41,611 bases of DNA from an uncultured Clostridia bacterium. Its GTDB lineage: Bacteria; Bacillota; Clostridia; Christensenellales; Borkfalkiaceae. The stretch lies in NCBI GenBank assembly GCA_947589555.1, contig CANQAZ010000007.1, positions 1-41,611 on the forward strand. The letters run 5' to 3'. The notes beneath the pieces were generated by a model. It was given only the letters and a program-made list of their open reading frames with translations. It did no database searches and was not told the DNA's origin. This document shows, one piece after another, positions 5,820-23,202 of the stretch. How positions within the stretch are numbered: the first letter of the stretch is position 1; every line of letters begins with the position of its first letter. The position numbers and the translations under genes were made by a program.

Positions 5820-6824
5820 ATGAAGTTTATTACTTGCGCCAGTTATTATGGTACGGGATCCAGTGCAGTCACCGACTTGATCACCGAATGCGATAATGTC
5901 CATGATATGGGCGATTATGAATTCAGATTTATTCAAGACCCGGACGGAATCAGGGATCTGGATTATAATTTGGTGGAAAACAACCACCGCCATAATAGCG
6001 GATATGCTTTGCGGCGATATAAAAAGTTTGCGGATTTTCTCAATGGCGGGCATTTTATAAAAAAATATAACCGCTATTTTGGAAAGGAATGGGAACGCCT
6101 GTCCCATAAATATATTGAGGACCTGACCGATTTGCAATATGTCGGCACTTGGCATCGTGAATTGTGGGACAAGGGAAGGGTCGCATACTTTCTTGAAAGG
6201 GGAGTGAACAAGATATTTCATTCCGTGTTTCATCTCAATCGGGACAGAAATATTCAATTGTTCCTAAAAAAGAATATAGAGTACGCAACATTTCCGCAGG
6301 AAAAATTCTATTCGATCACAAAGAAATATATCGAAGATTTGTTTTCTGTCGCCAATTCCGACGGCAAGGAATTTGTGATGGCGGATCAGTTGGTTCCCGC
6401 TTCCAATACCAATCATTATCTGAAATATTTTAATGACATCAAAGTGGTTTGCGTAGATAGGGACCCGCGCGATTTATATATTGCCGAGCAGGAATTATAT
6501 CACGGGAACATCGTACCTAAAAATGTTGAGGACTTTTGTATTTGGTATAAAGTAACGCGTGCCCACCGCGCTTTTGAGCAAGATGATCCCGAGAGAATAT
6601 TACGGCTGAGATTTGAGGACATGATTTATCATTATGAGGAATGTTCCGATTTGATTTTATCCTTTTGCGGAATAGACAAAGTCCATCATGTTGCGCCCAA
6701 AATGAAATTTGATCCTTCGAAATCCATAAAAAACACGCAATTATATAAAAGATTTAATAAACGTTTATCCGATGTAAAAACAATAGAAAAAGAATTGTGG
6801 CCCTATTTGTACAATTACGAATAA
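5820..6824 (+). CDS. Sulfotransferase-like protein
   Basis: A 334-residue protein with two features of PAPS-dependent sulfotransferases. The first is an N-terminal loop, YYGTGSSAVTDLI (residues 10-21), where the 5'-phosphosulfate loop is expected. The second is VVCVDRDPRDLY (209-220), the usual 3'-phosphate-binding RDPRD element. In a polysaccharide operon the inference is that it sulfates a glycan intermediate. No PAPS synthesis genes are present here. It lies 21 bases after wecB with a weak ribosome binding site. Base composition becomes clearly more AT-rich from this gene onward. It could be a family member with altered chemistry, since substrate-site residues cannot be judged by eye. Confidence 0.65.
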   Translation: MKFITCASYYGTGSSAVTDLITECDNVHDMGDYEFRFIQDPDGIRDLDYNLVENNHRHNSGYALRRYKKFADFLNGGHFIKKYNRYFGKEWERLSHKYIEDLTDLQYVGTWHRELWDKGRVAYFLERGVNKIFHSVFHLNRDRNIQLFLKKNIEYATFPQEKFYSITKKYIEDLFSVANSDGKEFVMADQLVPASNTNHYLKYFNDIKVVCVDRDPRDLYIAEQELYHGNIVPKNVEDFCIWYKVTRAHRAFEQDDPERILRLRFEDMIYHYEECSDLILSFCGIDKVHHVAPKMKFDPSKSIKNTQLYKRFNKRLSDVKTIEKELWPYLYNYE

Positions 6825-6842
6825 TCGTTTGGAGAGTGGAAA

Positions 6843-7985
6843 ATGAAAATAGCGTTTGTGTTTGATAGTCTCGGCTTTGGCGGCATAGAAAAAGTAGGTA
6901 TAGATTATATCAAAATATGTTGCCGTTTTGGGCATGATGTCGATGTATATAATTTGAATCCTGAGCGGGAGGAATTGGTTGAAACATTACCGGAATCCGT
7001 ATGTTACAGGCGGTTCAAGTTTAACAGAAAACTGTGCCCCGAATTATATAGTTACGGCGTACAAAAATGGTGGTGGGGAAAATATGCCTATGCGATCCTT
7101 TCTCCTTTTGTAAGTTTTGCGCAAGCCGTCCGAAAAGTTTTTTCAAAACATCGGAAATACGATGTCGCCATTGCTTTCGCCGGCCATATCAATGACCTTT
7201 CCTTTGTCGCCAAAAATTTCATTAAGTCAAAGAAGAAGATTTGTTGGTGCCACGGCAATATATTGTCATATTTCGCAATTTGCGATGCTTACCCGATTCT
7301 TTATAAAAAGATCGATGGGTTTGTAGTGCTTTCCTCCGCGGGGCAGAAGGACATATATCCCGGCCATAGATTTATGTACGAGAAAAAGATATATCAGATT
7401 TACAATCCGACGTTTATTTCGGACAAGCAGGTGGATGGCTCCATTGTGCAAGAATTGCGTGAGAAGTATGGAGATTTCATGCTGATGGTTGCCCGCATGG
7501 AAGACAGAAAGGGACAAAATGTGGCGATGGATGTGCTGAAAAAAATGTTGGCGGATGGCTACGATAAGCATTTGGTCTTTGTCGGCGGGGGAGACTTGTT
7601 GGAACACTATAAAGAATATGCGAAAACGTTAGGGATCGAGGCGCGGTGTCATTTCGTCGGTGAACACGAGAACATGCAGGATTATTACGCCGCCGCGCAC
7701 ATCAATATTTTAACAAGCAAATGGGAAGGGCTTCCGACCGTAATTGTTGAGGGAATGACGATGGGGAAACCGTGTGTCATGACGAATACGGACGATGGAG
7801 AAGTTTCGGGCAACGGAAAATATTGCATGCTCCATGCGGTCGGGGACGTGGAGGGGTTGACCCGGGATATAGAAGCGCTTTACAGTGACGAGGCGCTCTA
7901 TCAAAAGTATTGCGATTTGTCATTGCAACGGGCAAAAGATTTTTGCGCCGAGGCTGTTTCAATTCGTTTGAACGAAATTCTTTGA
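6843..7985 (+). CDS. Glycosyltransferase family 4
   Basis: A 380-residue GT-B glycosyltransferase. The N-terminus KIAFVFDSLGFGGIEKVGID is the glycine-rich acceptor-side loop. The C-terminal donor domain shows FMLMVARMEDRKGQ and SKWEGLPTVIVEGMTMGKP, with both conserved glutamates. The start follows a GGAGAG ribosome binding site nine bases upstream. The gene is AT-rich compared with the flanking chromosome, like its neighbours. It probably adds one sugar of the repeat unit; the donor is unknown. Confidence 0.9.
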   Translation: MKIAFVFDSLGFGGIEKVGIDYIKICCRFGHDVDVYNLNPEREELVETLPESVCYRRFKFNRKLCPELYSYGVQKWWWGKYAYAILSPFVSFAQAVRKVFSKHRKYDVAIAFAGHINDLSFVAKNFIKSKKKICWCHGNILSYFAICDAYPILYKKIDGFVVLSSAGQKDIYPGHRFMYEKKIYQIYNPTFISDKQVDGSIVQELREKYGDFMLMVARMEDRKGQNVAMDVLKKMLADGYDKHLVFVGGGDLLEHYKEYAKTLGIEARCHFVGEHENMQDYYAAAHINILTSKWEGLPTVIVEGMTMGKPCVMTNTDDGEVSGNGKYCMLHAVGDVEGLTRDIEALYSDEALYQKYCDLSLQRAKDFCAEAVSIRLNEIL

Positions 7986-7996
7986 GGCTGGATTGT

Positions 7997-8743
7997 ATGC
8001 AGAGGGAAGGAGAAAAAACGCCGTCGATGGATCTATTCGTCGTCGCACACAAAGAATTTGAAATGTGGGCTGACGACAGAGTTGTGATTTCGGTTGGCGG
8101 CGCGGAGATATCATTCGCGCAAGTAAAAGATAGCGTTGCGGATAATATTTCGGAAAAGAATGGCAGTTATTGTGAACTGACCGCTCTCTATTGGATTTGG
8201 AAAAATTGCAGGAGCGAGTATGTCGGTTTGGAACATTATCGTAGATATTTTTTGATGCACAATCAACCGATTTCCAAACGGCAAGCATTAAAAATATTGA
8301 AAAAAAGAGATTTGATTGTTTCCGATAAATATTATACGAAGCCGACGTTATATGAGCAATATGATAAGGCGCACGTCGGGAGCGATTTGGACTGCATAAG
8401 GGAGATCGTCCGCGAAAAATATCCGGATTATCTGCCTTCTTTGGAAGCGGTTTATCAGAGTCACGGAGCATATTATTTCAATATGTTTATTGCGCGTAAA
8501 ACATTGCTTGACGATTATTGCTCATGGCTATTCCCGATTTTATTTGAATTGGAGACAAAAATCGATAACAGCGCGCGGAATTCCTATCAAGCGCGTACCT
8601 TTGGATTTGTTGCGGAGCGGTTGTTTAACGTCTATATTTTGAAAAATAAGTTAAAAGTCAAAAGTATGGGCGTATATGGAAGTTATCGCGGTCCCATTGT
8701 GAGGCGTATCCACAATTTTATCGGTCGCATCCGATACCACTGA
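7997..8743 (+). CDS. DUF4422 domain protein, putative glycosyltransferase
   Basis: About 248 residues, recognised by MDLFVVAHKEFE near the start, NGSYCELTALYWIWKN and GLEHYRRYF, which are the hallmarks of DUF4422. This family is common in capsule and LPS loci and is thought to be a glycosyltransferase of GT-A type, but activity has rarely been shown. I placed the start at 7997, which has GAGG nine bases upstream and begins 11 bases after the previous gene. The ATG at 8027 directly precedes the conserved domain and is the alternative. Little is known about its sugar. Confidence 0.8.
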   Translation: MQREGEKTPSMDLFVVAHKEFEMWADDRVVISVGGAEISFAQVKDSVADNISEKNGSYCELTALYWIWKNCRSEYVGLEHYRRYFLMHNQPISKRQALKILKKRDLIVSDKYYTKPTLYEQYDKAHVGSDLDCIREIVREKYPDYLPSLEAVYQSHGAYYFNMFIARKTLLDDYCSWLFPILFELETKIDNSARNSYQARTFGFVAERLFNVYILKNKLKVKSMGVYGSYRGPIVRRIHNFIGRIRYH

Positions 8744-8749
8744 ACCAAT

Positions 8750-9868
8750 ATGTCGGTAGCATTATCCGTTGTAATCTATTTTAGCGCTTATGGCGCTACG
8801 GCGTTGTTGTACAGTCTGCTTTTCAGAATAAAAGCAGGCAGGTTTTCCAAATACTTTTTAATTGCTATTGCCGCATTGCCGTTTTCTCTTTTGGCGGGAT
8901 TCAGGGATAATGTAGGGACGGATTATCTTAATTACGCAAAGATTTTCGAGGAGTTCCGGACAACAAAATTAGTAGATCTCATAACCGCTTCGGACAACAT
9001 CGAAGTGGGCTATTATTTGCTTATAAGAGCCATTCAGTTTTTAGGCGCGGATGTTCACTTCGCGTTTTTTGCTTATGAATTTTTTATCATATATATTTTC
9101 CTTTTGGGACTAAGCAAATACAAAAATTCCGTTAATGCGATTTTTTGCATTACCTTTTATTTTGCCATGTACTTTCATCCGTCCTTGAATATTATCAGAC
9201 AGTCTATGGCGATGAGTTTATTGTTCTTGGCGTGCTTCTATTTGATCAATAAAAAATATGTCGCTTATGCGGTTACTAACGCGCTTGCATGTTTGTTCCA
9301 TCGGACGGCCATTATTTGTTTCATATTTTTTATCTTATATGTGTTTTTGCGCAGAGAGTATGCGAAGGACCGCGTGAAATTCAGACTGACGGGTAGACGG
9401 GTTCTGTTTTATATTGTCATTCTATTGTGCCCGTTGATCTATCGGTTGATCATTCCGTTGCTGTTGAGTTTGCCGTTCTTTTCCAAGTATTCCGATTATG
9501 CCGTCAACATTAACGGAACGATCGGATTTGGAATGACGTTCAAATTTATCGTGTTGATTATCCCGGTTGTAGCCGTTATGATCCATAAACGCGGAAATAT
9601 CAGCGCACAGAGTTTGAAATTGCTCGATCTGTACACGCTCTTCATTCCGATTTCGGATATCGGATATTTTATTGAGTTCACCAATCGGCTATATTTATAT
9701 CCGGAGATTTTAATGATAGTCCTTTCCTCCATGATGATAAAAGAGGAGGAGAATAAAAAGATGAGAACCGCAATGGTGATTTATTATCTTGCGTTTATGA
9801 TTTGTGTTTATGTCAACGATTATTTGATATATAATTTCAATGAAACATATCCTTTGGTTTTTGTGTAA
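8750..9868 (+). CDS. EpsG/Wzy-family polysaccharide polymerase
   Basis: A 372-residue integral membrane protein with roughly ten hydrophobic segments. The AGFRDNVGTDYLNYAKIFEE motif at residues 44-63 is characteristic of the EpsG family, the polymerase-like component of exopolysaccharide loci. It would join repeat units on the outer face of the membrane after flipping by the Wzx protein encoded at 11025. The gene sits six bases after its neighbour without an obvious strong ribosome binding site. The sequence of Wzy-type proteins is too variable to predict linkage. Confidence 0.82.
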   Translation: MSVALSVVIYFSAYGATALLYSLLFRIKAGRFSKYFLIAIAALPFSLLAGFRDNVGTDYLNYAKIFEEFRTTKLVDLITASDNIEVGYYLLIRAIQFLGADVHFAFFAYEFFIIYIFLLGLSKYKNSVNAIFCITFYFAMYFHPSLNIIRQSMAMSLLFLACFYLINKKYVAYAVTNALACLFHRTAIICFIFFILYVFLRREYAKDRVKFRLTGRRVLFYIVILLCPLIYRLIIPLLLSLPFFSKYSDYAVNINGTIGFGMTFKFIVLIIPVVAVMIHKRGNISAQSLKLLDLYTLFIPISDIGYFIEFTNRLYLYPEILMIVLSSMMIKEEENKKMRTAMVIYYLAFMICVYVNDYLIYNFNETYPLVFV

Positions 9869-9928
9869 TTACGCAGTTTGAATTGGCTTAAAGAAATTAT
9901 GCGGACGGATAGGATAGAGAGGGGAATG

Positions 9929-11032
9929 ATGTACGATTATTTGATTGTCGGTAGCGGTTTATTCGGTGCGGTGTGTGCATACGAATTGACGAAGGCGGGC
10001 AAATCCTGTCTCGTTGTTGAAAAACGCAATCATATAGGCGGCAATATATATACGGAGCAAATCGAGGGGATCAACGTTCATCGCTACGGCGCGCACATCT
10101 TTCATACTTCGGATCGGGAAGTGTGGGATTACATCAATCAGTTCGCCCGATTTAATCATTATATCAATAGTCCCATCGCTCGATATCAAAGCGAATGCTA
10201 TAATTTGCCCTTTAACATGAATACGTTTACAAAACTTTGGCCCGATGTTTTTACGCCCGCGGAAGCCAAAGCGCGCATCGATTCGGAGAGAAGGGAACGT
10301 TTTACAAGTGAGCCGAAAAATCTTGAAGAACAAGCAATCAATTTGGTGGGGGAAACGATCTATCGAAAACTGATCAAGGGCTATACCGAAAAACAATGGG
10401 GAAGGCCCTGTACAGAACTGCCGCCGTTTATCATAAAGAGGCTTCCCGTTCGCTTTACTTTCGATAACAATTATTTTAACGATGCTTACCAGGGGATCCC
10501 GATTGGCGGCTATACCCAAATCATAAAGCAAATGCTTGCCGGTGCGGAAGTCAGGCTTGGTTGTGATTTTTTCAGCCATCGCAAGAGTTTAACGGTGGTC
10601 GCCCGTAAAATAATTTTTACGGGGGCCATCGACCAATATTACGATTATTGTTTTGGCGCTTTGCAATACCGTTCGGTGCGCTTTGAAACCGAGACGCTCG
10701 AAACGGATAATTTTCAAGGCAATGCTGTGGTAAATTATACTTCTGCCGACGTTCCTTATACCCGCATCATTGAGCACAAGCATTTTGAATTCGGACAACA
10801 GCCGCGGACCGTAATTTCCCGCGAATATTCTACCGAATGGAAGAAGGGGGACGAGCCGTACTATCCCGTCAACGATCTAAAAAACAATGATTTATATGAG
10901 AAATATCGGGAGCGCGCCGCAGAAGAGAAAAAGGTGATTTTCGGCGGCCGTCTCGGTGAGTATAAGTATTACGACATGCATATCGTCATAAAGAACGCTA
11001 TCGAAACAGTGCGAAAGGAAATAAATGGCTGA
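9929..11032 (+). CDS. glf: UDP-galactopyranose mutase
   Basis: A 367-residue FAD enzyme converting UDP-galactopyranose to UDP-galactofuranose. Visible motifs are the FAD-binding YDYLIVGSGLFGAVCAYEL, VVEKRNHIGGN, HRYGAHIFHT, the active-site block KGYTEKQWGRP, the RLPVRFTFDNNYF block and PYTRIIEHKHF. All track the well-studied bacterial Glf closely. The start is set at 9929 because GAGGGG lies just upstream and the family begins MYDYLIVG. An in-frame TTG at 9878 would add 17 unrelated residues. Its presence implies galactofuranose in the polymer. It overlaps the flippase gene by eight bases. Confidence 0.95.
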   Translation: MYDYLIVGSGLFGAVCAYELTKAGKSCLVVEKRNHIGGNIYTEQIEGINVHRYGAHIFHTSDREVWDYINQFARFNHYINSPIARYQSECYNLPFNMNTFTKLWPDVFTPAEAKARIDSERRERFTSEPKNLEEQAINLVGETIYRKLIKGYTEKQWGRPCTELPPFIIKRLPVRFTFDNNYFNDAYQGIPIGGYTQIIKQMLAGAEVRLGCDFFSHRKSLTVVARKIIFTGAIDQYYDYCFGALQYRSVRFETETLETDNFQGNAVVNYTSADVPYTRIIEHKHFEFGQQPRTVISREYSTEWKKGDEPYYPVNDLKNNDLYEKYRERAAEEKKVIFGGRLGEYKYYDMHIVIKNAIETVRKEING

Positions 11033-12587
11033 AAAAAGTCTGAAAAAAAATTTTATTTATAACGTATCGTATCAGTTGCTGATGCTGATAGCGCCGTTTG
11101 TCGTGACCCCGTATGTTTCCCGGGTTTTGGGAGTGGACAATATCGGGTTATATAGTTATGCTAATTCCATAGTATCTTATTTCATGCTGGTTGCCGTATT
11201 GGGCACGACAACGTATGCACAACGCGCCATAGGATATTCTCAAAAGGACAAGGAAGAACGTAGCAGAAAATTTTGGGAAATAGTTATATTCAGGCTTCTG
11301 ACGTCAGCGGTAACGCTTGGCGGTTATATGATTTATGCCTTTTTGATCGCACCCCAAAATCAACGCTTGATTTGTCTGATCCTTGCTATGAATATTATCA
11401 ACAGCGCGTTGGATATTTCCTGGTTTTTGCAAGGGATGGAGGAATTCGGCAAAACTACGCTGTTCAGTACTTTGTTCAGGATAGCCAGCATCGTCTCGAT
11501 TTTTGTATTCGTTAAAAGCGCGGACGATCTTTGGCTATATGTTTTATTCAGCATTGTTTATAATGTTATCGGCAACTTGTTGCTTTGGGCTCTTCTGCCG
11601 AAATACATTTGCAAGGTCAGGAATATCCATCCCCTGAAAGATACAAAAACGATTTTGCAAATGTTTTTACCCACCATTGCCGTTCAATTATATACGGTAT
11701 TGGATAAGTCAATGTTGGGTTGGTTTGCGGACGGATATACGGAAAACGGATATTATGAGCAGGCAGAAAAGGTAGTTAAAATGGCACTCACCGCGGTCAC
11801 CGCTTTGGGACTCGTGATGATCCCGCGCATTTCAAGAAGGTTCAAAGAGGGCGACATGGCGCAGGTCCACGCGTATCTTTACAAATCGTACCGCTTTGTG
11901 TGGATGTTGGCGGTACCCATTATGTTTGGATTGATCGCCATAGCCGATATATTTGTTCCGATTTTTTTTGGCGATGGGTATGAGGCTTGCAGTTTGTTGA
12001 TACAACTGTTTAGTCCGCTCGTGATTTTTATAGGGTTGAGCAATGTGACCGGAATGCAGTATTTTGTTCCGATAGGCAAGCAAAACGTACTTACCCTTAC
12101 GGTAGTAATTGGTGCAATGGTCAACCTCGTTTTGAATTTGTGTTTGATTCCATTCTTCTATTCGATCGGCGCGTGTATCGCATCGGTCGTTGCCGAATTT
12201 TCCGTGGCAACAGCGGGCTTCGTGTACTGTAAAAAGAAGAAATGCTTCAAACTTTCGCCTGTATTTCTTTGTTCATGGAAATACTGGGTGGCGGGTGCGC
12301 TTATGTGCGCGGCAGTTTTTATATCCAAAATTTGGTTGCCTTTGGCGATTTGGAGCCTCATCGTTCTCATTTTAATTGGTATCCTCGTCTATTTCCTTGC
12401 ATTGTTTCTCCTCCGCGACGCCTTTCTATTGGAGGTTTTTCACAAAGGAGTTCAAACGATTCGTAATCTTTTTGGAAGAAAGCGCAAAAATAAAGAGGTG
12501 GCGGAAACCGCGTCCTCGAGCGATAAAGAAGGGCAGGAACAAAACGATACGACAGAAAAGCAAGAGGATGAGCCGTACGAAGGATGA
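11025..12587 (+). CDS. Wzx-type polysaccharide flippase
   Basis: A 520-residue MATE/MOP-superfamily membrane protein with about 12-14 predicted helices. The start KKNFIYNVSYQLLMLIAPFV followed by TPYVSRVLG is typical of Wzx/RfbX O-antigen and capsule flippases, which move undecaprenyl-linked repeat units across the membrane. The last 45 residues form a highly charged, Lys/Glu/Asp/Gln-rich cytoplasmic tail that is longer than usual. The start overlaps glf by eight bases. It is the last gene of the polysaccharide block; a terminator-like hairpin follows at 12694. Confidence 0.9.
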   Translation: MAEKSLKKNFIYNVSYQLLMLIAPFVVTPYVSRVLGVDNIGLYSYANSIVSYFMLVAVLGTTTYAQRAIGYSQKDKEERSRKFWEIVIFRLLTSAVTLGGYMIYAFLIAPQNQRLICLILAMNIINSALDISWFLQGMEEFGKTTLFSTLFRIASIVSIFVFVKSADDLWLYVLFSIVYNVIGNLLLWALLPKYICKVRNIHPLKDTKTILQMFLPTIAVQLYTVLDKSMLGWFADGYTENGYYEQAEKVVKMALTAVTALGLVMIPRISRRFKEGDMAQVHAYLYKSYRFVWMLAVPIMFGLIAIADIFVPIFFGDGYEACSLLIQLFSPLVIFIGLSNVTGMQYFVPIGKQNVLTLTVVIGAMVNLVLNLCLIPFFYSIGACIASVVAEFSVATAGFVYCKKKKCFKLSPVFLCSWKYWVAGALMCAAVFISKIWLPLAIWSLIVLILIGILVYFLALFLLRDAFLLEVFHKGVQTIRNLFGRKRKNKEVAETASSSDKEGQEQNDTTEKQEDEPYEG

Positions 12588-12693
12588 CGAAATACAATTA
12601 GGCCATATTCCTTTCAAGCGGATTTCACGCGCGGAGAGGACGAAAGGAGCCCGAGGCGCTTTCCTTATACTACTTAGTAAAAAATGAAAAGAT

Positions 12694-12721
12694 GCGACGC
12701 CGATCGGCGCCGTATTTTTTT
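12694..12721 (+). terminator. Rho-independent terminator after the polysaccharide operon
   Basis: An eight-pair stem with one mismatch (GCGACGCC / GGCGCCGT, loop GATC) is followed by A and a run of seven Ts. It lies 107 bases after the flippase stop. The rest of the 325-base gap between 12588 and 12912 holds only the promoter at 12855. Confidence 0.7.
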
Positions 12722-12854
12722 GCGGGGATTTTGTCCGCGTCGGTTTTTTAGCAAGGAGAGGACGGGCGGAAAAGGCAGAGCGGAAAAAGGAGAGTTTGGC
12801 AGGGAGATCGCGAAATATTTTGAAAAAATAAACGGTGAAGATTGCTTTATTTAC

Positions 12855-12882
12855 TTGACATTTTTCGGGGAGGGGATATAAT
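12855..12882 (+). promoter_or_regulatory. Strong sigma-A promoter
   Basis: Consensus TTGACA (12855-12860) and TATAAT (12877-12882), separated by 16 bp. It drives the small gene at 12913, whose ribosome binding site GGAGGAAAAGGG lies just upstream of the ATG. Both hexamers are perfect, which is unusual for an unknown 79-residue product and suggests high vegetative expression. Confidence 0.85.
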
Positions 12883-12912
12883 GATAGACAAATCAAGCGT
12901 GGAGGAAAAGGG

Positions 12913-13152
12913 ATGAAAGAGGAAATCGATAAAGAGAGCGCGGGACAGATCTCCTCGGCCGTATCCAACGCCGCGGCGCAAACGAACGCGCGGTTGGCGT
13001 CGACGAACGCACGGCTGACGCAGATCGCCTCCGCGACCGCTCTCAACGGTGCCCTTCTCGCAAAGGCGAACGAGAACAGCGCGGGCATCGCAAGGGATGT
13101 GGGCCGCTTGCGCGACTACGCCGATATCCATTACCGCCGCACGGTGAGATAG
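12913..13152 (+). CDS. Small Ala/Asn-rich protein of unknown function
   Basis: A 79-residue protein that I do not recognise. It is Ala-, Asn- and Ser-rich with a short internal repeat (NARLAST / NARLTQI), heptad-like spacing in the middle and a basic C-terminus (DYADIHYRRTVR). It has no signal peptide, membrane helix or cysteine. The gene has a perfect sigma-A promoter and a strong ribosome binding site, and is followed by a terminator at 13211, so it looks like an independent, well-expressed unit. A small helical, possibly oligomeric, protein is the most that can be said. Confidence 0.6.
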   Translation: MKEEIDKESAGQISSAVSNAAAQTNARLASTNARLTQIASATALNGALLAKANENSAGIARDVGRLRDYADIHYRRTVR

Positions 13153-13244: not shown

Positions 13245-14237
13245 ATGGGAAATCAGACCATTTACTTCAAAAAACAGCCGCGCATCGTGGCGACGAGCAC
13301 CATTGCCGGTCCCAAAGAGTGCGAGGGGATCATCGGGCGATATGTGGAGACGGCGCTTGCCGACGATATGTTCGGCGAAAGTACCTACGAAAAAGCGGAA
13401 TGTAAGATGCTCTCCCACGTTATCGACGGCGCGATCTCCAACGGGGGCTATAAGCGCGAGGAGATCGATTGCATCGTTTCGGGAGATCTTCTCAACCAAA
13501 TCATTTCGGCAAGTTTTGCGGCGCGCGATTTTTCGGTGCCCTTTTTGGGGGTGTATGGGGCGTGCTCCACGATGGCGGAAAGCCTTGCAGTGGGGGCGGC
13601 CTTTATCAACGGCGGCCTCATGCACCGCGTGGTCGCGGCGACGGGAAGCCATTTTGCTTCCGCCGAGCGTCAGTACCGCTATCCCCTCGAACTCGGTTGC
13701 ACCCGCCCCCCGCAGGCGCAGTGGACGGTGACGGGCGCGGGGGCCGCGCTCCTCTCCGACAAGGGCGACGGCATCAAAATTACGGCGGCGACGCTCGGAA
13801 AGGTGGTCGATTTCGGCGTGACCGACGTCAACAATATGGGCGCCGCTATGGCGCCCGCGGCGGCTGATACCATACTCGCGCATTTCCGCGGGACAAAAGA
13901 AGAACTCGAACGGTACGATCTCATCGTCACGGGCGATTTGGGGGCGCTCGGGAGCCGCATTTTGAAGGATCTCACATGGGAAAAGGGCCTGGATATCTCC
14001 GAGAGGCACGTCGATTGCGGCGAAATCATCTACAACGTCATTGAGGACGAATATCAAGGAGGGAGCGGCGCGGGGTGCTCCGCCGTCGTGCTCAATTCCT
14101 ATCTCATCAACCGTATGCAGTCGGGTGCGCTCCGCAGGATCCTCTTCGTGGCGACGGGCGCCCTCCTTTCCACCGTCTCTTCGGGGCAGGGGGAGAGCAT
14201 TCCCTGCATCGCCCACGCGGTCGTCCTCGAACGGTAG
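13245..14237 (+). CDS. spoVAD: Stage V sporulation protein AD
   Basis: A 330-residue SpoVAD. This thiolase-fold protein belongs to the SpoVA channel of the spore inner membrane, which moves dipicolinic acid during spore formation and germination. It matches the family from the N-terminus (STIAGPKECEG) through VSGDLLNQI, GVYGACSTMAE, SSH-like block GSHFASAERQYRYP, NMGAAMAPAAADTI and the C-terminal VATGALLS. No ribosome binding site precedes the ATG; a hairpin and T run sit there instead. Upstream in-frame sequence is closed by a TGA at 13209. The usual upstream partner spoVAC is not adjacent. Expression in the forespore is expected, but I could not identify a sigma-G promoter. Confidence 0.95.
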   Translation: MGNQTIYFKKQPRIVATSTIAGPKECEGIIGRYVETALADDMFGESTYEKAECKMLSHVIDGAISNGGYKREEIDCIVSGDLLNQIISASFAARDFSVPFLGVYGACSTMAESLAVGAAFINGGLMHRVVAATGSHFASAERQYRYPLELGCTRPPQAQWTVTGAGAALLSDKGDGIKITAATLGKVVDFGVTDVNNMGAAMAPAAADTILAHFRGTKEELERYDLIVTGDLGALGSRILKDLTWEKGLDISERHVDCGEIIYNVIEDEYQGGSGAGCSAVVLNSYLINRMQSGALRRILFVATGALLSTVSSGQGESIPCIAHAVVLER

Positions 14238-14358: not shown

Positions 14359-14736
14359 ATGGAATACTTAGATATTTTGCTCATGTTTTTGAAGGCGTTT
14401 TTGGTCGGCGGCCTCATCTGCGCCGTTGCGCAGGTCATCATCAATCTGACCGAGTTGACGGCGGGAAAAATACTCGTCATGTTCATGCTGGCGGGGGTGG
14501 CACTGACGGCGCTCGGATTGTACCAACCGATCGTGGAGTGGGCGGGCGCGGGGGCGACCGTGCCCATTTCGGGTTTTGGGTACTTGCTTGCAAACGGTGC
14601 GATGCGGGGGGCGCAAGAGGGGATCTTTCAAGCCCTCACGGGCTCGCTTGCCGCCGCAAGTGCGGGCGTTTCTGCGGCCGTCGTATTCTCATTTTTGATG
14701 GCGCTCATCTTCCGTTCGCACACAAAATATAATTGA
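14359..14736 (+). CDS. spoVAE: Stage V sporulation protein AE (SpoVAEb type)
   Basis: A 125-residue membrane protein with three or four hydrophobic segments, matching SpoVAEb: KAFLVGGLICAVAQVI, LGLYQPIVEWAGAGATVPI and SAAVVFSFLMALIF. It would form part of the dipicolinic-acid channel with SpoVAC and SpoVAD. The start is supported by GGAGG eleven bases upstream. It lies 121 bases after spoVAD, in the same orientation and presumably the same transcript. Length is normal. Confidence 0.93.
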   Translation: MEYLDILLMFLKAFLVGGLICAVAQVIINLTELTAGKILVMFMLAGVALTALGLYQPIVEWAGAGATVPISGFGYLLANGAMRGAQEGIFQALTGSLAAASAGVSAAVVFSFLMALIFRSHTKYN

Positions 14737-14805
14737 GCGTTTTCAAATTTAGTTGCATATTCTCCCGCCGCAACGAGTATATTATGGGGAAATTCGGGGG
14801 CTTTT

Positions 14806-14996
14806 TTATCCACATGGTCGCATAAATTCACCGTGGATAAGTGCGCCGCGGTTTGCCCGCGGGGGAAAAGTTAAAAAAAGTTATCCACAATTTACCCCTG
14901 ATTTTTCCACAGAATTCCACATTTCGACAAAAATCGCGTCGTTTGCGGGATTTTTTCAAAAAAAGTTATCCACAATTACAAATTTTCTGTGGATAA
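14806..14996. promoter_or_regulatory. DnaA-box cluster, possible oriC-like site
   Basis: Four perfect DnaA boxes TTATCCACA lie at 14806-14814(+), 14881-14889(+), 14966-14974(+) and 14988-14996(-). One-mismatch or near boxes lie at 14832-14840(-), 14903-14911(+) and 14913-14921(+). A 20-bp direct repeat, AAAAAAAGTTATCCACAATT, occurs at 14873-14892 and 14958-14977, 85 bp apart (about eight helical turns). The surroundings are AT-rich with poly-A and poly-T runs, unlike the GC-rich flanks. No dnaA or dnaN gene is nearby. It could be a replication origin, a DnaA-titration site, or a DnaA-controlled regulatory region. It occupies most of the gene-free stretch between 14737 and 15019. Confidence 0.75.
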
Positions 14997-15019
14997 TGTT
15001 TTTTCGCGCCGAAAAACCG

Positions 15020-15048
15020 TTGACAAATCGTCGCAAAGGGGCTATAAT
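15020..15048 (+). promoter_or_regulatory. Strong promoter of the tRNA-Arg locus
   Basis: Perfect TTGACA (15020-15025), 17-bp spacer, perfect TATAAT (15043-15048). Transcription would start about 15055, 24 bases after the last DnaA box ends the cluster plus the promoter itself. The leader from 15059 contains an eight-pair stem (CGGGTGAA with TTCGCCCG) before the tRNA-like sequences. Confidence 0.85.
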
Positions 15049-15113
15049 ATGCGAGTAATCGGGTGAAGCGGTGGTGCGATAAAGCCGTGCTTGCCTATTC
15101 GCCCGTTTCATGC

Positions 15114-15156
15114 GCATCTTTAGCTCAATTGGATAGAGCGTCGGTCTACGGAACCG
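15114..15156 (+). pseudogene. 5'-half copy of tRNA-Arg
   Basis: These 43 bases are identical to bases 1-43 of the intact tRNA-Arg at 15251: acceptor 5' strand, D arm, and anticodon arm through GGAACCG. After that the sequence departs into a GC-rich stretch with a six-pair hairpin (GTGCCG / CGGCAC at 15174-15193). There is no T arm or acceptor 3' strand, so it cannot be a functional tRNA. A short AAGGCTGG further on (15214 region) matches the start of the 3' half and may be a relic. It is co-oriented with and upstream of the intact gene, on the same predicted transcript. Confidence 0.75.
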
Positions 15157-15250: not shown

Positions 15251-15324
<74 letters not shown>

Positions 15325-15327
<3 letters not shown>

Positions 15328-16824: not shown

Positions 16825-17052
16825 ATGTGGACAGGAACCATCAGATGCGGAGGGATCGGTTGCGGAGCGACTTTGCCCCTCAATTCGACGCGGTGCCCTT
16901 ATTGCGGGTGGAGGCCGCGTTGCCTATATTGCAAATATTTGAAACCGAATTCTTCTTTCCCCCACATTGACGGCTGTACCCTGAAAGAAAATTCCGATGG
17001 GTACCGTTGCAGCAGATACGATTACGATTTCGAACGCTACGGAAATCCGTAA
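16825..17052 (+). CDS. Small cysteine-rich zinc-ribbon protein
   Basis: A 75-residue protein with eight cysteines: RCGGIGCG, RCPYCGW, RCLYCKY, a Cys in DGCTL and one in YRCSRYD. The paired CxxC motifs suggest one or two structural zinc sites. It has no membrane segment or signal peptide. A strong ribosome binding site (AGGAGG), its own promoter and a terminator at 17127 mark it as an independent, well-translated gene. Function is unknown; small proteins of this kind can be nucleic-acid or protein adaptors. Confidence 0.7.
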   Translation: MWTGTIRCGGIGCGATLPLNSTRCPYCGWRPRCLYCKYLKPNSSFPHIDGCTLKENSDGYRCSRYDYDFERYGNP

Positions 17053-17126
17053 CGTTCGCAGGCGGGCGCATTTTCGCACCGGGACCGCGTGCGGAAAAAG
17101 GGCGACGGTTAGCGCAAACAAATTTC

Positions 17127-17155
17127 GGCATATTCCGACGGAATATGCCTTTTTT
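17127..17155 (+). terminator. Rho-independent terminator
   Basis: A perfect ten-bp stem, GGCATATTCC / GGAATATGCC, with a three-base loop GAC and a run of six Ts. It ends the zinc-ribbon transcript and insulates it from spoIIGA. A lone TATAAT at 17173-17178 follows, without a good -35, and may belong to the spoIIGA promoter. Confidence 0.9.
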
Positions 17156-17200
17156 CGTGCCCTTTTAGCCCTTATAATACCTGTCACGGGGAAGGGAAGA

Positions 17201-18073
17201 ATGGTCGTATATGCCGAGTATGCGTTTCTGGAAAATTTTTTGATCGATGCGGAACTACTCTACCTCGCTCTGAAATGTGCGCGGGGACGGGTGCGGCTGT
17301 GGCGCCTCTTTCTTGCCGCCGCGGTCGGCGCGGCCGAAGCGCTCGTCTTTCCGCTCCTGCCGCTTCCCTTATGGGCGGCCTATCTCGTTAAAATTTTGGG
17401 CGGCGTGCTCATTGCCGTGGCGGCCGTATCCAAAGGCACGAAAAAGACCTATTTCGTCGCGATCGTCTCCTTTTTCCTCATGACGTTTGCGCTCGGCGGA
17501 TTGCTCACGGCCGCCTATTCCTTTTTCGGCGTGGAATACGCCGAGGGGAGCGGCTATCTCGTCGAACAGGCTCCCGTGGCGCTCGTGCTCGCGCTCGCGG
17601 GTGGATTTTGTATTCTCGTCACGCTCGGCGCAAGAAGATTTTATCGCTACCGATGCGAAAAACGCGCCGTATTGCCCTGCGTGTTGTCCGTCGGCGGAAA
17701 AACGGTGCATTGGAAGGGGTTTTCGGACAGCGGAAACCTGCTTTCGTTCCGCGGGGAGCCCGTCTGCGTCGCCTCCGCCGCGGCCGTTTTTGCCCTCTTC
17801 GGTCCTCATCCGCGCGCGGAGGGGCACATCCGCATCGGGACCGTGAACGGAGGCAGGGATTCGCCCGTATTCCGTTGCGACAGCCTGAAAGTGGGGGAAA
17901 AAGTGAGCGAGGGGGCCTTGATCGCGCTCGGTGCGGTGGAGAGCGGGGAGTACCAGATCATATTACATACCGCCTATTCGGAGGGAGAACATGAAGTTGT
18001 TGGGAATGCTGAAAGCGTGGCTCGAAGGGCTATGGGGAAGCGAGAACGTCGTCCATTACCTCTGCGGAAGTGA
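17201..18073 (+). CDS. spoIIGA: Sporulation sigma-E factor processing peptidase SpoIIGA
   Basis: A 290-residue membrane-embedded aspartic protease that cleaves pro-sigma-E in the mother cell after a signal from the forespore. Five hydrophobic helices occupy about residues 5-145. The cytoplasmic protease domain follows, with the catalytic motif GFSDSGNLL (Asp176). The C-terminal [10 protein letters not shown] resembles the family's end. The start at 17201 follows GAAGGGAAG and begins with the usual [15 protein letters not shown]. The gene runs 83 bases into sigE in another frame, so its last 27 codons are shared, which is more overlap than usual. Regulation by Spo0A is expected from the family, but I see no clear Spo0A box. 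Confidence 0.93.
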
Positions 18074-18701
18074 GGCGTTGCCCTTGCCGCTTTCCGCCGA
18101 GGAGGAGGGCGAAATGCTCCGCAAGATGGAGGCGGGGGAGGACGTGGAAGCGGTCAAGGCCTCCCTCATCGAGCACAACCTGCGTCTCGTCGTGTACATA
18201 TCGCACAAATTCGAGAATACGGGCGTGGACGGCGACGATCTCATTTCCATCGGGACCATCGGTCTCATCAAAGCCATCAATTCCTTCCGTTCCGATAAGA
18301 ACATCAAACTTGCGACGTATGCCTCACGGTGCATCGAAAACGAAATTCTGATGTACCTCAGGCGCACGGTCAAGTTGAAGAGCGAGGTCTCCTTTGACGA
18401 GCCCCTCAATACCGATTTCGAGGGCAACGAATTGCTCCTATCCGACGTCCTCGGCACCGACAGCGAAACGGTGTACGGCGGCGTGGAAGCGAACGTCGAA
18501 AAGGAACTCCTCAAAGAGGCGCTCAAAAAACTGCCCGAGCGCGAGCAGAAGATCATGTACATGCGCTTCGGCCTCGGCGGGAGAGAGGAAATGACCCAAA
18601 AGGACGTCGCCGACCGCCTCGGCATTTCCCAAAGTTACATATCCCGGCTCGAAAAAAAGATCATCGAACGGCTCAAAAAGGAAATTTCCAAACTCGTCTG
18701 A
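17991..18701 (+). CDS. sigE: RNA polymerase sigma-E factor (mother-cell sporulation)
   Basis: A 236-residue sigma-70 family factor made as an inactive precursor and activated by SpoIIGA. Residues 1-20 form the short hydrophobic pro-sequence ([16 protein letters not shown]). [13 protein letters not shown] follows, then region 2 ([40 protein letters not shown]) and region 4 ([20 protein letters not shown]). These are near-identical to known SigE proteins, apart from the shorter pro-region. GGAGGGAGAAC gives a good ribosome binding site inside the spoIIGA coding region. Translation of the pair is therefore coupled. Confidence 0.96.
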
Positions 18702-18718
18702 AAAAACTGCCGCAAACA

Positions 18719-18747
18719 TTGACAGAAAGGGCATTTTTCGGTATAAT
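18719..18747 (+). promoter_or_regulatory. Consensus sigma-A promoter between sigE and the galactosidase
   Basis: Perfect TTGACA (18719-18724), 17-bp spacer, perfect TATAAT (18742-18747). It starts 18 bases after the sigE stop and serves the GH27 gene at 18778. A short CCCAA / TTGGG stem at 18751-18769 touches the ribosome binding site GGGAGG, but it may begin upstream of the transcript start. Confidence 0.9.
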
Positions 18748-18777
18748 TGTCCCAAAAAGATCTCTTGGGAGGCAATT

Positions 18778-19905
18778 ATGATCGCCTATCTTCCGCCTAT
18801 GGGCTGGAACACCTGGAACACCTTTGCGCAGGACATCAGCGAGGAACTCATCCTTTCTTCCGCGGAAAAACTGCTTTCCACCGGCCTGAAAGCGGCGGGA
18901 TATGAATACGTCGTTGTGGACGATTGCTGGGCGCTCCGAGAGCGGGACGGCAGGGGAAGGCTCGTTCCCGATCCGCAAAAATTTCCGCACGGAATGAAGT
19001 ACGTCGCCGACCGCCTGCACGCAATGGGGCTCAAATTCGGCATGTATTCCTGCGCCGGGGCGATGACTTGCGCGGGTTATCCCGCGAGTTTCAACCGCGA
19101 ATATCTCGATGCGCGCACCTTTGCTTCGTGGGGCGTGGATTTCCTCAAATATGATTATTGCTTCAAGCCCGCTTCGGCCGACGGGAAAAATCTATACCGC
19201 CGCATGGGCCTTGCGCTTGCAAGTAGCGGCAGGAAGATCCTGTTCAGCGGTTGCAGTTGGGGCGTGGACGCAACGCATGAATGGATCGGCTCCACGGGCG
19301 CGAATATGTGGCGCTCTACCCCCGATATTTTCGATACCTTCGATTCAGTGAAGGACATCATCAAACGGCAGTACGACATCCTTCCGTACGGCGGCGTAGG
19401 GTGCTTCAACGATATGGATATGCTCGTCGTGGGCATGCACGGCAAGGGGAACGTGGGGCTCTCCGGCTGTACGGACGACGAATACCGCCTGCATTTTGCG
19501 GCGTGGTGCGTGCTGGCCTCCCCGCTCATGATCGGATGCGACATCCGCAACCTCGATGAAACGACGAAGGGCATTTTGACCGACCCGACCCTTCTCTCCA
19601 TCGCAAAGGATCCGCGCGGCAACCGCCCGTATCTCATCCGCTTTGCCGATAGCGACGATCTGCCCGTTTTTGTGCGCGCCCTCGAAGGGGGAGACCTCGC
19701 GGTCGGCTTCTTCAACCTTTCCGACGGGGCCGTCAACTTTTGGGTCTCGGCGGACGATTTGGGGGTGCCCGAAATCAGCGGAAAGATCCTTGCGGGCGTG
19801 GAGGCCTACACGGGGCAAAAGGTGCGCTCCGCGAACGGCGTGCTTTCGGCGCGGGTGGAGGCGCACGCGTGTAGCGTGATGAGGCTCCGCGTCGCACAGC
19901 GATGA
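18778..19905 (+). CDS. GH27 alpha-galactosidase
   Basis: A 375-residue glycoside hydrolase of family 27, a retaining enzyme that releases alpha-linked galactose. The (beta/alpha)8 barrel starts at PPMGWNTWNTF. The nucleophile is Asp126 in FLKYDYC and the acid/base is Asp183 in MWRSTPD. CFNDMDMLVVG and CVLASPLMIGCDIRNLD are further family landmarks. A short beta-sandwich domain closes the protein. There is no signal peptide, so it acts in the cytoplasm on imported galacto-oligosaccharides or galactosides. No transporter or other sugar gene is nearby. It has its own sigma-A promoter and lies between sigE and sigG, which are usually neighbours. It overlaps the next gene by four bases. Confidence 0.93.
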   Translation: MIAYLPPMGWNTWNTFAQDISEELILSSAEKLLSTGLKAAGYEYVVVDDCWALRERDGRGRLVPDPQKFPHGMKYVADRLHAMGLKFGMYSCAGAMTCAGYPASFNREYLDARTFASWGVDFLKYDYCFKPASADGKNLYRRMGLALASSGRKILFSGCSWGVDATHEWIGSTGANMWRSTPDIFDTFDSVKDIIKRQYDILPYGGVGCFNDMDMLVVGMHGKGNVGLSGCTDDEYRLHFAAWCVLASPLMIGCDIRNLDETTKGILTDPTLLSIAKDPRGNRPYLIRFADSDDLPVFVRALEGGDLAVGFFNLSDGAVNFWVSADDLGVPEISGKILAGVEAYTGQKVRSANGVLSARVEAHACSVMRLRVAQR

Positions 19906-20102
19906 CCTGCGAAAGGTGCGGCGGGGCCCTCGGCGACGACGCCCTCGGGCTCAACCGGAAATACAACCCCGGCCGCGGATGGCTCTGCAAGGGCTGTTTG
20001 GCGAAAAAACTCGGCGTGACCGAGCAACGGCTGGACGAAAAAATAGAAGAATTCCGCCGCGCGGGCTGTATGCTCTTTTCCGCTCCCGCCCGCCGCGCAT
20101 AA
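19902..20102 (+). CDS. Small two-CxxC zinc-binding protein
   Basis: A 66-residue protein with MTCERCGG at the N-terminus and WLCKGCLAKKLG at residues 27-38. These four cysteines would bind one zinc. A charged helix (EQRLDEKIEEFRRAG) follows. It overlaps the galactosidase stop (ATGA), so it is translationally coupled to it. I do not recognise the family; a regulatory or adaptor role is possible. The last codons overlap the -35 of the putative sigG promoter. Confidence 0.65.
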   Translation: MTCERCGGALGDDALGLNRKYNPGRGWLCKGCLAKKLGVTEQRLDEKIEEFRRAGCMLFSAPARRA

Positions 20103-20126
20103 CTTTTTGCAAAAACGCAGATACTC
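20097..20126 (+). promoter_or_regulatory. Putative sigma-F promoter of sigG
   Basis: GCATA (20097-20101), a 15-bp spacer and GCAGATACTC (20117-20126) match the sigma-F consensus (GYATA, 15 bp, GGNNANANT-type) at all but one or two positions. It lies 31 bases before the sigG ATG, with AAGGAGG between. sigG is transcribed by sigma-F RNA polymerase in Bacillus, so the position fits the known cascade. The match was made by eye. Confidence 0.5.
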
Positions 20127-20156
20127 CTTTTCCCGAAGTACATAAGGAGGAATGCC

Positions 20157-20927
20157 ATGTTGCAGAAAGTAAACATCTGCGGCGTTGATACCGCAGGACT
20201 TCCCAAACTCACCGCAAAGGAAAACGAGGCGCTCATGATACGCCTGAAAGCGGGGGACAAGGCCGCGCGCGACCAGTTTATTGTGGGCAATATGAGGTTG
20301 GTGCTCTCCCTCGTCAAGCGTTTTTGGGCGAAAAACGCCAACGCGGACGATGTTTTTCAGGCCGGTTGCGTGGGGCTCATCAAGGCGATCGATAATTTCA
20401 ATCTCGATTTCAACGTAAAATTTTCGACCTATGCCGTGCCCATGATCCTCGGCGAGATTAAGCGGTATCTGCGCGACGGAAACAGTTTGCGCGTTTCCCG
20501 CTCCATCCGCGATACGGCGTACCGCATTCTGAAAGTGCGCGAGGGGCTCGAAGAGCGCGACGAAGAAGCGACCATCGAGCGCATTGCCGAGGAGATGCAG
20601 GTGAAAGAGCGAGAAGTGGTCTACGCCCTCGACGCCATTTCCGATCCGGTCTCCCTCTACGACCCCGTTTACAACAAGTCGGGCGATACCCTGCAACTCG
20701 TGGACCAACTCTACGACGAAACGCAGAGCGAGGCCATCTGGACCGAGCGGGTCGCCCTCCGCGAGGCCATCGACCGCCTTGCCGACCGCGAGAAGAAGAT
20801 CCTCATGCTCCGCTACTATGAAGGCAAGACGCAGACGGAGATCTCCGCCGAGGTCGGCATTTCGCAGGCGCAGGTGAGCCGCCTCGAAAAAAACGCGCTC
20901 GGCGCCATCCGCAAGGAAATTTTCTGA
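20157..20927 (+). CDS. sigG: RNA polymerase sigma-G factor (forespore sporulation)
   Basis: A 256-residue sigma-70 family factor that directs late gene expression in the forespore, including spoVA genes. The N-terminal KVNICGVDTAGLPKLTAKEN is the SigG signature that sets it apart from SigF. Region 2 (DDVFQAGCVGLIKAIDNF, KFSTYAVPMILGEIKRYLRD), RVSRSIRDTAYRI and region 4 (TQTEISAEVGISQAQVSRLE) are intact. AAGGAGG precedes the ATG with seven-base spacing. The usual direct sigE neighbour is separated from it by the GH27 gene and the small zinc gene. Confidence 0.96.
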   Translation: MLQKVNICGVDTAGLPKLTAKENEALMIRLKAGDKAARDQFIVGNMRLVLSLVKRFWAKNANADDVFQAGCVGLIKAIDNFNLDFNVKFSTYAVPMILGEIKRYLRDGNSLRVSRSIRDTAYRILKVREGLEERDEEATIERIAEEMQVKEREVVYALDAISDPVSLYDPVYNKSGDTLQLVDQLYDETQSEAIWTERVALREAIDRLADREKKILMLRYYEGKTQTEISAEVGISQAQVSRLEKNALGAIRKEIF

Positions 20928-23168: not shown

Positions 23169-23202
23169 TATAATAGTATAGCATAACCCCAAAATTTTGC
23201 AA
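23169..23202. promoter_or_regulatory. Overlapping divergent promoters for dnaD-like gene and sbcD
   Basis: On the + strand, TTGCTT (23146-23151), a 17-bp spacer and TATAAT (23169-23174) point toward sbcDC. On the - strand, TTGCAA (23197-23202), a 16-bp spacer and TATACT (complement of 23175-23180) point toward the dnaD-like gene. The two -10 boxes abut, so only one polymerase can probably bind at a time. Confidence 0.65.

Follow-up and report, generated by a model that had tools for sequence, protein, structure and literature searches.

A dense cluster of DnaA boxes lies between spoVAE and a tRNA-Arg gene in the genome of an uncultured clostridium of the family Borkfalkiaceae, which raises the question of what such a cluster does when dnaA is not its neighbor. 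The stretch of DNA that we analyzed, here called the window, is contig C7 (41,611 nucleotides) of a draft genome of 1,618,108 bases in 123 contigs. An earlier note on this sequence had described four perfect boxes, three near-boxes and a 20-bp unit of A-tract and box duplicated at a spacing of 85 bp, set in an AT-rich island with spoVAE and tRNA-Arg on either side and none of dnaA, dnaN, gidA or rpmH beside it. All of this was borne out. The features listed below also include some beyond that note, namely the box geometry shared with relatives, the match to the Spo0A box, the promoter and the partial tRNA copy:

13245..14237, plus strand: spoVAD (PF07451, E=7.5e-140)
14359..14736, plus strand: spoVAE, ending ~135 bp before the aligned module (PF03862, E=1e-30)
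14806..14814, plus strand: perfect DnaA box (TTATCCACA), an extra one upstream of the conserved core
14832..14840, minus strand: one-mismatch DnaA box (TTATCCACG)
14881..14889, plus strand: box A of the conserved module, perfect (TTATCCACA), assigned from the geometry in relatives
14903..14911, plus strand: one-mismatch DnaA box in the spacer between A and B (TTTTCCACA)
14913..14921, plus strand: degenerate, two-mismatch box (AATTCCACA)
14923..14929, minus strand: TGTCGAA, which fits the Spo0A box (consensus as in excerpts of PMC4285127, PMC4690370 and PMC5295017), at a distance of 42 bp from where box A begins
14966..14974, plus strand: box B, perfect (TTATCCACA), 85 bp after A, assigned from the geometry in relatives
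14988..14996, minus strand: box C, perfect (TTATCCACA) and inverted, 22 bp after B, assigned from the geometry in relatives
15020..15048, plus strand: predicted sigma-A type promoter, TTGACA-17-TATAAT, read from the sequence and laid out in the same way in relatives
15114..15156, plus strand: duplicate of the 5'-terminal 43 nt of the tRNA-Arg gene (100% over 43 nt)
15251..15327, plus strand: tRNA-Arg(ACG) (ARAGORN; Rfam RF00005, 63.3 bits)

The duplicated unit occupies 14873-14892 and 14958-14977, the GC content is 40.9% in 14741-15060 compared with 54.5% in the window, and dnaA, dnaN, rpmH and mnmG/gidA (the last named from its translation) are all on other contigs. The -35 element starts past a 23-nt gap behind box C, whose center lies ~64 bp before the tRNA transcript start expected from the -10 element. 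A search for a structured leader RNA showed no excess stability (z -0.28). Between the 5' copy of the tRNA gene and the full gene there are 94 bp; partial copies of the 5' part of tRNA-Arg(ACG), beside the gene or beside each other, occur in 13 of 61 family genomes (hand count) and are possibly scars of repeated integration. Elsewhere in the window, the region 6001-13000 has lower GC and mostly higher positive skew and carries genes for EpsG, UDP-galactopyranose mutase and a polysaccharide flippase, so that it is likely a polysaccharide island, and the region 16997-20927, near spoVA, contains spoIIGA together with a pair of sigma-70-family genes and, between the two, an alpha-galactosidase gene.

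The cluster is real and far from chance. Boxes with at most one mismatch number 12 in the window against 4.4 expected, a count reached in none of 100 shuffles, and six of the 12 fall within the 191 bp from 14806 to 14996; among 2000 random GC-matched 320-mers, none had six boxes and the maximum was two. Across the draft genome there are 10 perfect boxes, four of them in the cluster, compared with 9 occurrences of a reversed control pattern.

The earlier note had suggested looking for the same cluster in related genomes, where we found it to recur as a spaced module: box A, 84-86 bp, box B, 22 bp, and the inverted box C, often with the heptamer TTCGACA 42 bp after A. Boxes alone (limits 80-90 and 18-28 bp) yielded 28 triples in relatives, of which 23 were kept; those dropped (L104, L115 on the plus strand, L161, L163 and L097) all lack TTCGACA. 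An alignment of 22 copies (A1, from which L169 was also left out) gave a sequence-only model, R1. Figures free of selection bias are those of the sets chosen by boxes alone, i.e. the 28 triples and the 23 copies. With wide limits on the spacing, 85 bp was the commonest distance between two plus-strand boxes (30 of 60 sources; limits 30-140 bp) and 84 bp the third commonest (14 of 60), and 22 bp was the commonest distance from a plus- to a minus-strand box (29 of 60 sources, the next value having 2; limits 5-60 bp).

We searched R1 against 201 family genomes of at least 90% completeness. Among the genomes of the genus is G018, which contains the contig of Candidatus Gallimonas merdigallinarum (L258, lying in reverse complement inside L055). 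At E<=1e-8 the model matched 46 of 61 genomes within the genus and, elsewhere in the family, 42 of 140, in genera g40, g41, g44 and g46 (both hand counts). At E<=0.01 matches extended to 169 of 201 genomes, the weak ones including oriC gaps (e.g. G028:C2:134154). In the query genome's own oriC candidate stretch and dnaA contig R1 had no match. At the level of the order, 71 of 198 genomes matched at E<=1e-4, with a best value outside the family of 3.4e-10. For closer comparison 60 copies were assembled, 50 from sources with R1 matches (of 52 searched; L012 and L219 have none) and 10 from 26 further loci with matches. Of the 16 loci thereby left out, 13 have the same score as an included copy and three are unrepresented: L026 and L058, with a tRNA-Arg downstream on the same strand, and L025, without one. 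The layout A-B-C fits just 37 of the 60 model matches; outside the genus it often differs. In copies with the exact 85/22 spacing, the box columns have 94% pairwise identity, a value that owes something to the selection itself, since boxes carrying no more than one, one and two mismatches served as anchors for the copies, and the rest of the spacer has 43% (13 copies with the tRNA) or 41% (9 copies without it).

In many copies the module precedes one particular tRNA gene. Of the 60 copies, 34 are followed by a same-strand tRNA-Arg(ACG) that begins 73-366 bp away, 25 have no tRNA-Arg in the 450 bp downstream, and for one the available sequence is too short. A promoter of the form TTGAC[AT]-15/19-TA[TA][AG][AT]T stands behind the module in 31 of the 34 tRNA-linked copies, as against 3 of the 25 without the tRNA, and in 29 of these 31 the -35 element begins 20-32 nt past the end of the model match (62 and 78 nt in the other two). 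Every tRNA-Arg(ACG) found within 450 bp lay downstream of the module and in its orientation. In the reverse direction, starting from the tRNA gene, 13 of 30 tRNA-Arg(ACG) loci had an R1 match upstream on the same strand and 17 had none, one of the 30 having just 34 bp of upstream sequence. The conserved spacing between boxes and promoter makes this a candidate DnaA-regulated promoter, and DnaA control of tRNA-Arg(ACG), one of the functions that the earlier note had considered, agrees with the repeated upstream position and the near-fixed distance to the -35 element.

Membership of the spoVA operon was considered as an explanation for the cluster and rejected as a rule: spoVAE lies within 400 bp upstream in just 17 of the 60 copies and 1.1-4.8 kb upstream in some others, so that the spoVA context is one common setting. 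The link to the tRNA also persists where the flank examined contains neither spoVAD nor spoVAE, in the same genus (L276, L277) as well as in g46 (L266, L267, L269) and g41 (L270, L271). On a spoVAD tree of 27 rows, the fewest changes imply that the tRNA was separated at least two times, although a single origin may also fit.

Taken together, we consider it probable on balance that the module is a conserved DnaA-binding control site outside oriC, which would act as a sink for DnaA and as a regulatory site coupled to the tRNA promoter. The nearest alternative would dispense with the sink, the whole being a regulatory region of tRNA-Arg(ACG) in which DnaA upstream of the -35 element activates or represses the tRNA. 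The fixed promoter distance, the consistent side and strand and the persistence of the link without spoVA genes all speak for it, yet we hold it to be unlikely, as nine copies keep the exact 85/22 layout without any tRNA-Arg within 450 bp. The next genes at four loci of this or a similar type differ as well (an FAD protein, an MFS transporter, a cation ATPase and an EamA transporter). A downstream gene common to the copies without tRNA was sought among seven ORFs at four loci (L025, L035, L041, L044) and none was found, nor was there a recombinase among these ORFs. Behind several copies without the tRNA promoter (L044, L070, L108, L114, L171) we observed a motif resembling GGGGCATGTCC, which also occurs in the recF-dnaA gap of the query genome (L012, near 1225).

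The heptamer between boxes A and B is the second conserved element. TTCGACA is present in the spacer of 19 of the 23 copies chosen by boxes alone (19 of 28 when the dropped triples are counted), in 14 of them at +41/42. In the model-selected set it is the commonest spacer 7-mer, found in 26 of 37 copies (at +41/42 in 22) compared with a shuffle mean of 0.3 and maximum of 3, a figure that is partly built in because R1 itself holds the motif. Its reverse complement, TGTCGAA, is the Spo0A box according to excerpts of PMC5295017, PMC4285127 and PMC4690370, so that a TGNCGAA box at a conserved position would mark the module as a candidate Spo0A-bound site. The window contains TGTCGAA twice, against 7.2 expected, and one of the two is that in the module. 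Spo0A itself is widespread, with a Spo0A_C match in the query genome (E=2.1e-39) and in 187 of 201 family genomes.

The distribution of the motif follows that of Spo0A imperfectly. In genus g44, all six examined elements lack TTCGACA although the genomes have Spo0A; in G207 and G215, which have no Spo0A_C match, the motif is present but displaced, and G004 lacks both. At two spoIIGA loci, where the start codon is uncertain, there was no Spo0A-like box upstream. TTCGACA occurs at one of two spo0A loci, 190 bp upstream and still within the last part of the ORF before it, and is absent from the other. Genome-wide, TTTGTCGAA occurs at 22 sites compared with one for the reversed control; 19 of the 22, the module's own site among them, are inside called ORFs, and nothing could be learned from seven proteins encoded at six of the sites. 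Since the consensus sequences of Spo0A and DnaA are similar, as noted in the excerpt of PMC5295017, TTCGACA may instead be a weak DnaA site, and Spo0A as the factor acting there is uncertain.

For the sink, an activity that the earlier note had likened to datA, the anatomy is again in agreement: of the ten perfect boxes in the genome, this site has four and the gap that appears to be oriC (see below) has none. These numbers, and the occurrence of the layout both with and without the tRNA, would also suit a site that is nothing other than a DnaA sink, of the type of the DnaA-box clusters of B. subtilis, with the tRNA promoter as a neutral neighbor. A passive sink, however, needs neither the 85/22-bp spacing nor TTCGACA near +42 nor a near-fixed distance to the promoter, and perfect boxes are found in the oriC of relatives too, so that we regard this explanation as rather improbable. 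A titration site and control of the tRNA promoter need not exclude each other, and the control site with both roles accommodates the two.

The earlier note had also raised a relocated or second origin of replication, to which the box density, the AT-rich island and the departure of dnaA from the dnaN|rsmG site might lend some weight. In the query genome, dnaA (PF00308) is on contig C104 in the arrangement recF<-|->dnaA, followed by the beginning of mnmG/gidA (the identities of recF and mnmG come from their translations), and this contig has no perfect box. Contig C19 carries dnaN and rpmH, with dnaN back to back with rsmG; dnaA with recF and mnmG (L012, C104) has thus parted from dnaN, rpmH and rsmG (L219, C19), and the oriC candidate has stayed at dnaN|rsmG. 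Box clusters are absent at 29 of 30 dnaA loci of the family (151 genomes searched), the exception being L127, a 3.4-kb contig of G118, a genome with two dnaA matches.

The divergent dnaN|rsmG gap on C19 looks like a canonical oriC and is the best candidate for it. It holds eight boxes with a CCACA core, none of them perfect, and a tract resembling a DnaA-trio, CCACTATTACTATTATTA; its end before dnaN reads TTGTCCACA, ATTTCCACA and then CCACTATTACTATTATTATATAAATATT, which resembles the DnaA-trio of C. difficile oriC2, given in the excerpt of PMC7561715 as 5'-CACCTACTACTATTACTACTATGA-3'. A similar tract at dnaN is present in five of six relatives inspected (G157, G028, G056, G035, G027); in G170 none was visible in the final 170 nt of the gap. 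The gaps of these relatives contain perfect boxes, one in G157, two each in G028, G056 and G035, five in G027 and one in G170, so that the argument from a weak oriC is valid for the query genome only. Further box clusters were observed at G170:C2:328374-328653 (in L193), ~7 kb from the dnaN|rsmG gap, and at G028:C2:105126 (in L221), ~29 kb from it.

GC skew points to the same gap. In G157, of the same genus, nearly all called genes point outward from the gap at ~12.5-12.9 kb, and the skew is below zero in both 5-kb bins up to 10 kb and above zero in 34 of 34 bins from 10 to 180 kb. In G170, of another genus, all 22 bins between 228 and 338 kb have negative skew and the 8 beyond them positive skew, with dnaN|rsmG at ~335.6-336.7 kb; ten bins sampled further left, including that with dnaA at 45.9 kb, are all negative. 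On C19 itself the skew (0.002 left of the gap, +0.062 right of it) neither helps nor harms. At the module, by comparison, the window shows no sign change (+0.13 left, +0.02 right), and around the modules of G034 and G122 the skew is flat or ambiguous. In the window the module shows neither a skew minimum with diverging gene direction nor, as judged by the exact pattern TACTATTAY, a box beside a DnaA-trio and an AT-rich unwinding region; the window's single instance of this pattern is at 23170, 8 kb away. Given the candidate at dnaN|rsmG, the skew turn there in G157 and G170 and the steadily positive skew of the window, the cluster at 14806-14996 is very probably not oriC, and we consider either form of the origin proposal highly improbable. 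Of the interpretations in the earlier note, the origin is therefore not supported, and the titration site and the tRNA-promoter control stand as agreeing with the anatomy. The genome is at the same time a trap for origin calling, with perfect boxes at a tRNA gene and imperfect ones at the oriC candidate.

That the repeats are sites of a protein other than DnaA is scarcely credible, since four of the repeats carry all nine letters of the DnaA consensus, and the oriC gaps of relatives contain perfect boxes of this type.

Returning to the control site with sink and promoter functions, we envisage the following mechanism, drawn from sequence comparison. DnaA bound to boxes A, B and C would make up a single compact complex directly in front of the tRNA-Arg(ACG) promoter; at 10.5 bp per turn, the spacings of 85 and 22 bp amount to about 8 and 2 helical turns, so that by this arithmetic the three boxes would face about the same way. 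The complex would be a strong sink for DnaA, competing with an oriC whose boxes are all imperfect in the query genome. In copies with the promoter, the complex would also activate or repress transcription of tRNA-Arg, and a second factor at TTCGACA between A and B, most likely Spo0A~P, might remodel the complex. tRNA-Arg(ACG) reads CGU, CGC and CGA by general codon rules. That a single module reads the state of replication through DnaA and that of sporulation through Spo0A~P and sets the supply of this tRNA is a tentative extension, which we think doubtful.

Both halves of the proposal have precedents, in the removal of clusters in B. subtilis and the read-through into datA in E. coli. B. subtilis has DnaA-box clusters outside oriC (Okumura et al. 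2012, via the reviews PMC5295017 and PMC13220808), and removal of six of them leads to early initiation (PMC5295017, PMC13220808). As in those clusters, the boxes are grouped outside oriC in a spore-forming member of the Bacillota and are candidates for the control of free DnaA; unlike them, the boxes here are set out at 85/22 bp, are accompanied by a Spo0A-like box and repeatedly stand in front of one tRNA promoter. In E. coli, transcription of tRNA genes continues into datA (excerpt of PMC10950094), which like the module is a compact DnaA-box site outside oriC beside a tRNA transcription unit; datA, however, is downstream of glyVXY and works with IHF, whereas the module is upstream of tRNA-Arg. 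The combination of DnaA boxes with TGTCGAA motifs recalls B. subtilis oriC, where Spo0A boxes partly overlap DnaA boxes (excerpts of PMC5295017 and PMC4285127), yet the module is not an origin by the tests made and has its 0A-like box between the DnaA boxes. Finally, DnaA-controlled promoters such as that of sda, with its link to sporulation (excerpts of PMC4447404 and PMC5295017), resemble the proposed action of DnaA at a promoter and the proposed tie to sporulation; the product here is a tRNA and not a protein checkpoint, and control is predicted.

Among open-licence PMC papers we found none that joins DnaA boxes to a tRNA promoter or DnaA-box clusters to tRNA-Arg. With several strong boxes clustered outside what appears to be oriC, the module would belong to a known kind, the DnaA-box clusters of the B. 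subtilis type; its layout, its place before a tRNA and its 0A-like box are new as far as we found.

The best-studied DnaA sites outside oriC are those of E. coli, B. subtilis and other model species. Near-invariant spacing next to a tRNA promoter, repeated across a family of gut Clostridia that is mainly known from metagenomes, would make the coupling of initiator sinks to tRNA transcription, as at E. coli datA, testable in a distant lineage. Through the module, initiation of replication may be coupled with tRNA supply, and perhaps with sporulation; if this is true, it would be a direct wire between replication initiation, the sporulation decision and decoding capacity, kept across much of a bacterial family.
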